Below are positions 50,578 through 53,180 of a DNA stretch of 64,000 bases, in pieces; position 1 is the first letter of the stretch; each line of letters begins with the position of its first letter. This DNA is from Flavobacterium glaciei (GTDB taxonomy: Bacteria > Bacteroidota > Bacteroidia > Flavobacteriales > Flavobacteriaceae): positions 1 through 64,000 of the forward strand of contig NZ_QQBA01000007.1 in the NCBI RefSeq assembly GCF_003350545.1, in the 5' to 3' direction. Made by a program: the position numbers and the translations under genes. Below the pieces are notes generated by a model that had not been told where the DNA came from, made no database searches, and saw only the letters and a program-made list of their open reading frames with translations.

Positions 50578-51207
50578 ATGATTAAAGTATGTATAGCCGA
50601 TAATTATCCTGTTGTGCATTTTGGAGTAAAATCTTACTTTAAAGATAATGCGGACATCTCAATTGTTGCCAATGTCGGCAATTTCTTGATGGTAAGGGAT
50701 ATTCTTCAAACAAAAGACATTGATGTATTAGTATTAGATTTGGAGCTGGAAGGTCTTTCCAGTATTTTTGAGGTTAAAGCAATCTTAAAAAACTTTCCAA
50801 AAACTAAAATTATTGTTTTCAGTGGGCTTTCAGAACAAATTTATGCGCCAAATGCCATAAAAGCCGGAGTATCTGGCTTTGTGCATAAATCAGAAAAGCT
50901 TGAAACTTTAGGGATTTCAATTATCAAAGTCTCCCAAGGTAAGATTATCATGAACGAAACCGTGAAGAAAAACTTAGCCTTAATTGCAAAACAAAGTAAA
51001 AGCGAACGTTTATACCGCAAACTTTCCAACCGTGAGGTAGAAGTTCTACGTTATTTAAGTGGTGGGAAAAAGAATCATGAAATTGCTGATATTTTAAATC
51101 TTAATGAAAAAACCATTAGCACTTACAAATTGCGATTATTAACCAAACTAAACGTTACAAATCTAGTGGATTTAGTAGACAAAGCTAAAAAATTAGAGAT
51201 CGTCTAA
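50578..51207 (+). CDS. Response regulator, LuxR/NarL type
   Basis: A 209-residue protein. The receiver domain (1-120) has the acidic IADN start, the likely phospho-Asp in VLVLDLELEG and the late Lys in FVHKSEK. The output domain (about 140-209) is a LuxR-type HTH: LSNREVEVLRYLSGGKKNHEIADILNLNEKTISTYK. No histidine kinase is beside it. Its stop overlaps the dnaG stop by three bases in a convergent pair. Confidence 0.93.
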   Translation: MIKVCIADNYPVVHFGVKSYFKDNADISIVANVGNFLMVRDILQTKDIDVLVLDLELEGLSSIFEVKAILKNFPKTKIIVFSGLSEQIYAPNAIKAGVSGFVHKSEKLETLGISIIKVSQGKIIMNETVKKNLALIAKQSKSERLYRKLSNREVEVLRYLSGGKKNHEIADILNLNEKTISTYKLRLLTKLNVTNLVDLVDKAKKLEIV

Positions 51208-53180
51208 TAATACCTAGACATTACTCTTCCTAATTTTTTGGAAAAAGAGTGGATTAAAATATTATAATCCATTATTAAAGATAAAGACTCTGTATTGTCT
51301 GAACTCGGTTCAGATGATATGGAGCTTTTTAGTTCTTCAATGATTTTACCTACTAAATACCATCTTAGAGTTAAAATCGTTTCGGATACATTTTGACTTA
51401 TTGTATCACTTTTTGATTTCGGAAAAATATTTTGTCCTACCCAATCGTGAAGAACAACTCGTTCGTCCTCCATTAGGATGTCAGTTACTTCCTGTGCAAA
51501 ATCAACCTGTAAATGCATTAAATATTGCTCTAAACTGAAACTTTCATTCTGATGATAATAGTTAATTAAATCATTAAAAATATCTCTAAATAATGGATTT
51601 GCTAATTCAACTTCATCTTCCTGTAAACTAAGATAGATGCGTTGATACACTTTATATTCTTTTTTCTCGGTAACGGTTTCTATTTCCCCTTCCTCGTTAG
51701 TTCTCAAAAATATATCTTCAAATTCTTCTACTTTATTTCCATATAACAAAAGAATTTCAATTATTTTTCTTTCCAATCGATATAAAACATCAACTTTTTC
51801 AGCTTCAACAGGATTTTCGTTTTTTACAACTTCAAAAGCTTTTTGCTCTGTTTTTTGTTTTTTTCCAACCTCGTTTATATCTTTTTGTACCAATTGCGCT
51901 AAAGTACTCACTAAAACTTGCTCGGAGATATCCATAATTCGAGAACATTCTTGGATATAAATTTCGCGTTGAATTCTATCCGGAATTTTCGAAATACTGA
52001 TTACCATATCCCGAATCAAATCGGCTTTTTTTATGGGATCATTCTTAGCTTCATTCATCAAAAGTGATGCTTTAAATTGAATGAAATCTTTAGCATTATT
52101 TTCAAGATATAAAACTAAATCTTCGTAAGAAGTTTTTTTTGCAAAACTATCCGGGTCTTCTCCATCAGGAAAAGTGCATACTTTTACATTCATTCCTTCT
52201 TCAAGAATCAAATCGATTCCGCGAATAGAAGCCCTTAAACCAGCCGCATCACCGTCAAAAAGGACCGTAATGTTTTTTGTTAATCTATTTATTAAACGGA
52301 TTTGATCTGGCGTCAATGCTGTTCCAGAAGAGGCAACAACGTTCTCAATACCCGATTGATTGAATTGAATTACATCAGTATATCCTTCAACTAAATAACA
52401 ATTATTCAGTTTTGCAATGGATTGTTTGGCTTGAAAAATACCATACAGCACTTTACTCTTGTGATAAATTTCACTTTCGGGTGAATTCAAGTATTTTGCC
52501 GCTTTTTTATCATTGGTTAAGATACGTCCTCCAAAACCTAAAACTCTTCCCGACATGCTTTCAATAGGGAACATCACACGTCCTTTGAACCTGTCAAAAG
52601 GCCTATCGTCTCTTGGGATTGTAAGTCCTGTACTTTCTAAAAATTCTAATTTATATCCTTTGCCAAGAGCTTCTTTTGTAAACGCATCCCAACTTTCAGG
52701 TGAATATCCTAAGCTAAATTTTTTGATGGTTTCACTTGTAAAACCTCTTTCCTTAAAGTAAGAGTATCCGATGGCTTTACCCTCTTCTGAATTTAAAAGC
52801 GTGTTGTGAAAATACGTTTTGGCAAATTCCGATACCAAATACATGCTTTCTCGAGTATCTGTTAGTGCTTTTTCTTGATCTGTTTGCTCTGTTTCTTCAA
52901 TTTCAATATTGTATTTTTTGGCTAAATACCGAATGGCTTCTGGATACGTAAAATGAGAATGTTCCATCAAGAAAGCAACCGCATTTCCGCCTTTTCCAGA
53001 ACTAAAATCTTTCCAAATTCCCTTTGCCGGCGAAACCATAAATGATGGCGAACGCTCTTCAGAGAAAGGACTTAAGCCTTTATAATTACTTCCTGCTCTT
53101 TTTAAATGAACAAATTCACCAATAACCTCCTCTACACGAGCAGTTTCATAAACAGTATCAATTGTAGCTTTTGAAATCAA
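51204..53180 (-). CDS. dnaG: DNA primase DnaG, zinc ligands missing
   Basis: DnaG makes RNA primers at the replication fork. The 658-residue product has the N-terminal CHC2-like fold (NYKGLSPFSEERSPSF; FSSGKGG), the primase core with VEGYTDVIQF and LFDGDAAGLRASIRG (Toprim), and a C-terminal DnaB-binding helical region. The four zinc ligands are gone: Cys/His of CPFH are Ser37 and Ser40, and the two later Cys are Asp58 and Ser61. The start is TTG at 53180; no in-frame ATG offers a better start. Confidence 0.95.
   Translation of the reverse strand: MISKATIDTVYETARVEEVIGEFVHLKRAGSNYKGLSPFSEERSPSFMVSPAKGIWKDFSSGKGGNAVAFLMEHSHFTYPEAIRYLAKKYNIEIEETEQTDQEKALTDTRESMYLVSEFAKTYFHNTLLNSEEGKAIGYSYFKERGFTSETIKKFSLGYSPESWDAFTKEALGKGYKLEFLESTGLTIPRDDRPFDRFKGRVMFPIESMSGRVLGFGGRILTNDKKAAKYLNSPESEIYHKSKVLYGIFQAKQSIAKLNNCYLVEGYTDVIQFNQSGIENVVASSGTALTPDQIRLINRLTKNITVLFDGDAAGLRASIRGIDLILEEGMNVKVCTFPDGEDPDSFAKKTSYEDLVLYLENNAKDFIQFKASLLMNEAKNDPIKKADLIRDMVISISKIPDRIQREIYIQECSRIMDISEQVLVSTLAQLVQKDINEVGKKQKTEQKAFEVVKNENPVEAEKVDVLYRLERKIIEILLLYGNKVEEFEDIFLRTNEEGEIETVTEKKEYKVYQRIYLSLQEDEVELANPLFRDIFNDLINYYHQNESFSLEQYLMHLQVDFAQEVTDILMEDERVVLHDWVGQNIFPKSKSDTISQNVSETILTLRWYLVGKIIEELKSSISSEPSSDNTESLSLIMDYNILIHSFSKKLGRVMSRYY

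Follow-up and report, generated by a model that had tools for sequence, protein, structure and literature searches.

A primase ribbon without zinc ligands

How does a cell prime its DNA with a DnaG whose zinc ribbon holds none of the residues that bind zinc? The question is raised by the dnaG gene in the first 64,000 nucleotides of contig NZ_QQBA01000007.1 of Flavobacterium glaciei, the stretch of DNA that was analysed in full and is called the window here. Textbooks treat the zinc atom as an essential part of DnaG. The gene (51204..53180, minus strand, like all its features below) is an intact open reading frame (ORF) with a TTG start that encodes a DNA primase of 658 amino acids. The four ligand positions of its N-terminal ribbon, Cys-His-Cys-Cys (CHCC) in zinc forms, are occupied by Ser37 (agt, 53070..53072), Ser40 (tct, 53061..53063), Asp58 (gat, 53007..53009), and Ser61 (tct, 52998..53000). 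An initial annotation of this locus had claimed that all four ligands are replaced while the frame of the ribbon is kept, and both the codons and the match to the Pfam family PF01807 agree. In zincless DnaG, an enzyme of a known family that is essential for replication has lost its zinc ligands repeatedly and by a fixed rule. The window protein is probably the ordinary replicative primase of the cell, and its ribbon is likely to fold without the metal.

The order along the protein is CHC2 ribbon, DNAG_N, Toprim, and DnaB-binding region. The CHC2-type ribbon (residues 1-97, 52890..53180) is supported by Pfam, AlphaFold2, and superposition on 1d0q, with Zn_ribbon_DnaG (PF01807) matching residues 3-97 at 92.9 bits (cut-off 24.9). 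It is followed by DNAG_N, which marks the beginning of the RNA polymerase domain (residues 124-252, 52425..52811; Pfam PF08275, 6.8e-39), the Toprim domain (residues 262-346, 52143..52397; Toprim_2, 1e-19), and the DnaB-helicase binding region (residues 380-421, 51918..52043; DnaB_bind PF10410, 33.7 bits versus a cut-off of 20.6). Among 26 aligned zincless DnaGs the acidic Toprim residues Glu265 and Asp309 are invariant and Asp311 is present in at least 90%. A profile search of the whole 3.14 Mb genome returned a single PF01807 match, i.e. dnaG alone, which rules out a second, zinc-bearing DnaG. A sequencing error or pseudogene is ruled out as well, given the intact ORF, the complete set of domains, and the same state in relatives. 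Judged from sequence, the intact catalytic residues and the lack of any other DnaG in the genome also appear to exclude a primase-dead protein of the Twinkle type.

Distribution of zincless DnaG

DnaG was read in 329 loci, which represent 326 distinct sequences, as three pairs are one sequence fetched twice, and many of the others are close relatives. Of these, 155 carry CHCC and 174 follow the zincless pattern S-x-[C/D]-[S/T/A], a ratio that is not a prevalence because sampling was biased towards low scorers and by a scan for zincless patterns. The 155 include the second, shorter primase of one genome (L100), L134 is fragmentary, has a disturbed frame, and reads VSMV or CHCC at the ligand positions, and L149, a 100-base region without DnaG, was dropped. 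The initial annotation had proposed mapping the loss of Cys/His over the phylum of the window, Bacteroidota, and this gave 76 zincless loci out of 149, with low-scoring genomes fetched deliberately. Patescibacteria (taken to be the phylum of a Saccharibacteria genome) and Verrucomicrobiota (likewise for a Puniceicoccaceae genome) each yielded 9/50, both sets consisting of the 30 best and 20 among the weakest scorers. At least 80 further zincless loci came from a scan of named organisms and are zincless by design (80/80), the scan being built on zincless patterns.

Zincless DnaG occurs in Bacteroidota/Chlorobiota, Saccharibacteria, Verrucomicrobiota, and viral contigs, with named carriers such as Chlorobium phaeovibrioides, Chlorobium ferrooxidans, Roseivirga, Mangrovivirga, Brumimicrobium, Candidatus Saccharibacteria, and Opitutales. 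The best 80 of 453 confirmed viral-contig loci comprise 25 zincless, 54 CHCC, and one CPCC sequence (L398, 591 amino acids). ORFs of about 940 amino acids in viral contigs (L331-L410) contain the CHC2-type ribbon in zinc as well as zincless forms. Every member of the window's family that was read is zincless. Within the same order, the zincless form is retained even in a genome of 0.3 Mb (G432, L136), and CHCC is kept in four genomes (L032-L035). The switch has thus recurred, both in viral contigs and in three or more bacterial phyla, and is not the property of one lineage. The initial annotation had attributed the same sequence to other Flavobacteria, which fits the members read of the window's family, and had taken it for a probable lineage trait instead of a defect. 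The second half of that view holds, as the state is heritable and sits in an intact, sole gene, while its confinement to a single lineage does not.

A fixed replacement rule

The replacements follow a fixed rule. In the 174 zincless sequences the first ligand position is always Ser (174/174), the second varies (T, S, V, N, H, K, A, R, or G), the third is Asp in 82 and Cys in 92, and the fourth is Ser or Thr in 173 (Ser 107, Thr 66, Ala 1). A neighbouring position switches along with the ligands: Ser60 of the window protein (53001..53003) is Ser in 172/174 zincless sequences versus Gly in 141/155 zinc sequences. When 12 independent pairs from supported branches were compared, Ser60 changed with the switch in 10.4 and in the opposite direction in 0, compared to 7.1 and 0.3 for the next-best column (Leu36) and a median excess of 0.6 across 69 columns. 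The co-switch of Ser60 together with the fixed replacements shows a small core that changed in concert and did not drift. At equal identity of the catalytic domain, zincless ribbons are also more alike than zinc ribbons in the three top bins (0.78 v 0.73, 0.82 v 0.76, and 0.85 v 0.80), which speaks against relaxed selection.

Substitute ligands were not found. The first 100 residues of the window DnaG contain no Cys at all, and the same is true for 79 of the 82 sequences of the Asp58 type, so that the shift of Cys/His to nearby positions, which had been named as an outcome that would refute the initial claim, did not turn up. None of the 329 sequences holds a partial zinc site, save for a lone Cys58 or (six sequences) His40. 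The commonest Cys or His in zincless ribbons is the Cys58 retained by some lineages (92/174), and no other is widely conserved, the nearest being His74 (50/174), followed by His76 (37) and His57 (21). Lys at positions 34, 53, 57, and 63 is commoner in zincless than in zinc forms (raw counts, kinship ignored). A compensating positive charge was ruled out, as zincless forms average a lower net charge over residues 20-80 than zinc forms (1.71 v 2.47).

A second ribbon with the same swap and zinc use in other proteins

The rule is shared by a second protein family. A passage in PMC3372290 describes DUF164 proteins of Flavobacteria as generally having SXXS-X20-DXXS in place of two CXXC motifs, and the DUF164 (PF02591) ribbon in the genome of the window, ASAGS...TDEHS (G000:C1:176912-177004, L485), is zinc-free by the rule of DnaG. 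PF02591 was searched in 80 genomes and the ribbons were assigned by pattern to "C4" (four Cys) or "none", where some "none" ribbons retain one or two Cys (e.g. G049, G186, G146, G109, G430). Zinc DnaG goes together with C4 DUF164 in 36/38 genomes (three of the 38 DnaG states inferred from the score of a hidden Markov model), while the C4 set is lacking in 27/31 genomes with Asp58-type DnaG versus 2/38 with zinc DnaG. The Fisher p of 1.6e-12 for this association (77 genomes with DnaG read) is inflated by relatedness. Among seven independent pairs, both proteins switched the same way in 4.5 and in opposite ways in 0.2, with a median sign-test p of 0.125 from too few pairs for significance. Genomes with Cys58-type DnaG keep C4 DUF164 in 9/11 cases. 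Exceptions were C4 DUF164 with Asp58-type DnaG (three genomes of f3 g32, and G422), loss of C4 with Cys58-type DnaG (G045, G428), and degenerate DUF164 with zinc DnaG (G096, G147).

Two further observations concern DUF164. The ribbon of G430 (L476), ATGGS...SEHC, is an odd mixed zinc-free form with Ser and Cys where Asp and the last Ser are usual. In four genomes (G236:C1, G152:C40, G019:C21, G023:C61), noticed without a systematic count, DUF164 and dnaG lie no more than about 5 kb apart, and PMC3372290 reports this neighbourhood elsewhere, so that the two may be functionally connected.

The joint loss in DnaG and DUF164 could reflect zinc economy, i.e. a metal that is often scarce and has been shed from many proteins, with DnaG as one case of a cell-wide programme. 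Both the association of Asp58-type DnaG with DUF164 lacking C4 and the direction of the independent pairs fit such a programme, as do two other proteins. The RecR zinc-finger profile matched in 72/80 genomes and found no match in 7/42 genomes with zincless DnaG (five Chlorobi-type, G316, and the 0.3 Mb G432) versus 1/38 with zinc DnaG. A topoisomerase I (Top1) zinc ribbon was not found in the window's own genome, and Bacteroidetes Top1 is mainly of a zinc-free type according to PMC9369019. On the other hand, the RecR C4 finger is retained in 34/34 zincless-DnaG genomes whose finger was read (the G053 match left out), and LigA and ClpX of the window's own genome keep C4. Likewise, 20 extra CHC2-like proteins comprise six with CHCC, one with CCCC, three with a displaced fourth Cys, eight with Ser37 and Asp/Cys58, and two others, and five of those with CHCC (L417, L418, L422, L423, L425) reside in hosts with zincless DnaG. 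The retention of RecR, LigA, ClpX, and these CHCC proteins indicates that these cells do use zinc and that its loss is selective. Cys58-type DnaG, with its mostly intact DUF164, also runs counter to a general programme, and we regard zinc economy as an unlikely, although not far-fetched, explanation.

Side findings from the same survey include the RecR profile match in Chlorobi-type genomes, which is weak or absent (G010, G048, G079, G133, G087, G005, G280); in the two that were read, G010 and G005, RecR retains all four Cys, with additional residues separating the two pairs. Proteins of about 300 amino acids resembling Toprim/CHC2 in genomes of the zincless-DnaG type (L412-L415, L421, L427, L428, L430) lack zinc ligands (mostly S-R-D-S/E/L/I) and probably belong to mobile elements.

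How often the state changed

Trees of the catalytic domain were built with the ribbon omitted and without the eight of 329 sequences that are shorter than 400 amino acids. A careful tree of 36 Bacteroidia sequences contained 8 state changes, and a tree of 140 sequences contained 21, of which 12 are forced by starred branches. A single zincless clade was rejected by the approximately unbiased test (p-AU) in a set of 66 sequences, 32 of them zincless, both for the catalytic domain (p-AU 0.0006) and for the ribbon minus the switched columns (p-AU 4.5e-6). Codons for Ser37 were read in 135 of the 174 zincless sequences and are split between AGY (79) and TCN (56), a mix that repeated origins would give.

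Alternatively, the state may have originated once or a few times in the distant past and been passed among lineages and phages on a cassette, either the gene or the domain, with no repeated conversion in place. Zincless ribbons are indeed more alike than expected from their catalytic domains, also where identity is low (0.47 v 0.41), and ribbons of close relatives that differ in state are unusually different (0.61 v 0.80 in the 0.8-0.9 bin with two pairs, 0.60 v 0.73 in the 0.7-0.75 bin with 17 pairs). Moreover, the ribbon tree places the zinc sequences L033-L035 with L068/L078, apart from their catalytic-domain neighbours, and viral contigs contain both forms. The rejection of a single clade by the ribbon itself and the split Ser37 codons argue against this scenario, and zincless ribbons of Patescibacteria and Verrucomicrobiota mostly stand beside zinc ribbons of their own phylum, albeit in a weakly resolved tree. 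For L033-L035, a clade was not rejected with the catalytic domain (p 0.109); a cassette swap among them is thus not established, and within Flavobacteriales one may or may not have taken place. We therefore consider cassette spread improbable as the general explanation, while the likeness of ribbons of the same state and the divergence of close cross-state pairs imply that local ribbon exchange may have contributed. An apparent domain mosaic of L109/L108 is not claimed, as it is due to a poorly matching stretch (residues 321-480) in L108. In that stretch alone, the identity of the L108 (G214) dnaG to its congeners falls to about 0.3-0.45, perhaps owing to a frameshift in the assembly or the gene.

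Fold, proposed mechanism and start-site reading

The AlphaFold2 model of residues 1-105 has a mean predicted local distance difference test score (pLDDT) of 90.6 and superposes on the primase zinc domain of B. stearothermophilus (1d0q) at 1.1 Å over 92 columns, with template modelling (TM) scores of 0.83/0.86. A second superposition on 1d0q gave a root-mean-square deviation of 1.3 Å over 98 residues (Z 16.8). As the predictor knows this family, the result shows that the sequence is compatible with the fold and does not prove it.

Ser37, Asp58 (Cys58 in other lineages), Ser60, and Ser/Thr61 probably join the two knuckles of the ribbon via hydrogen bonds and packing, replacing the coordination of zinc, and position 40 would lie outside this core and hence be free to vary. 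The outer face of the ribbon would still read the template trinucleotide, and the preference would be set by Lys57 (53010..53012), the neighbour of the third ligand that was lost. The cell would thereby gain a primase unaffected by zinc shortage, chelation of the metal, or the oxidation of zinc thiolates. We tentatively extend this to a reusable zinc-free code, Ser-x2-Ser/Thr...Asp-x2-Ser, which may keep the same shape and function, between which and the zinc state DnaG would have switched a dozen times or more across several phyla as well as phages, and whose Asp form might occur jointly in DUF164 through coupling or shared selection, making zinc dispensable for start-site reading; we hold this wider proposal to be slightly less probable than its contrary.

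Several points weigh against these interpretations. The structures used for training AlphaFold2 include zinc-bound relatives, and a familiar fold may come back with or without the metal. The hydrogen-bond network was deduced from residue types, and Ser, Asp, and His might in principle bind metal weakly. Cys58 stays in 92/174 zincless sequences, so that the chemistry of a single network does not fit all of them. The 140-sequence tree is a quick one with some long rows, whose branch stars are less trustworthy, and tree counts have no direction, i.e. they do not tell loss from regain and some changes may represent returns to zinc.

The initial annotation had also argued that the loss of zinc implies a changed choice of start sites. 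This finds no support here, as the fold is predicted to be unchanged and Lys57 is kept at a position where either Lys or His is found in both forms. Lys57 aligns with a Lys in A. aeolicus primase and corresponds to Lys70 of C. difficile primase CD1454, a residue beside the third ligand that, according to PMC5204125, matters for the preference of the trinucleotide 5'-CCC over CTA. Among representatives, position 57 is Lys in 74, His in 20, and Tyr in 4 of 98 zincless sequences, and His in 63, Lys in 58, and Tyr in 13 of 136 zinc sequences. The retention of this specificity residue means that zinc loss need not alter start sites, and by analogy the window enzyme is predicted to favour C-rich starts. 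The strong form of that argument, in which the ribbon is a relic that no longer reads the template, leaving loose start sites to be directed by the helicase and the catalytic core, is very unlikely: random di-ribonucleotides made by T7 primase minus its zinc domain (in the excerpted text of PMC6163395) and the primase activity lost in animal Twinkle (per an extract of PMC10557236) show what such a path could look like, but the zincless ribbon is better conserved than the zinc ribbon at equal divergence, its replacements obey a fixed rule, the Toprim residues of the enzyme are intact, and Lys is enriched at the four positions given above.

The 3' end of dnaG overlaps by four bases (51204-51207) with that of a convergent ORF (50578-51207), which by eye looks like a LuxR-type response regulator.

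Relation to known systems and significance

The window ribbon shares family, predicted fold, and place before the polymerase domain with the DnaG zinc-binding domains of B. stearothermophilus (1D0Q) and A. aeolicus (2AU3; PF01807), and with the A. aeolicus enzyme also the Lys at the specificity position, but it has none of the four zinc ligands and Ser60 instead of Gly. The same replacement rule is found in the FlgZ-type zinc ribbon of DUF164 (PF02591, Zn_ribbon_9) of Flavobacteria, which belongs to another protein family and is not a primase. Animal mitochondrial Twinkle is related as a primase-helicase, and its N-terminal domain resembles the predicted model in structure (7t8c, Z 5.8). Twinkle has also lost its zinc cysteines. 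Unlike Twinkle, for which loss of primase activity is stated in the portion of PMC10557236 cited above, the window DnaG has intact catalytic residues and is the only DnaG of its genome. The C-terminal repeats of zinc-free topoisomerase I (Topo_C_Rpt) are likewise DNA-binding, related to replication, and without zinc in Bacteroidetes; they form a separate repeat family and, going by the relevant part of PMC9369019, apparently involve no residue-for-residue swap at ligand positions. Searches of open-licence papers in PubMed Central found no mention of zincless DnaG.

These results call for caution on two counts: zinc binding should not be annotated from the family name, and primase inhibitors meant to act by ejecting zinc may meet targets of this kind. 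A fixed replacement rule common to two ribbons suggests that a metal-free ribbon could be designed. Finally, with many natural primases that lack the zinc ligands, some of them in close sister pairs with zinc forms, the role of zinc in this family can be addressed by comparing enzymes and not by breaking one.

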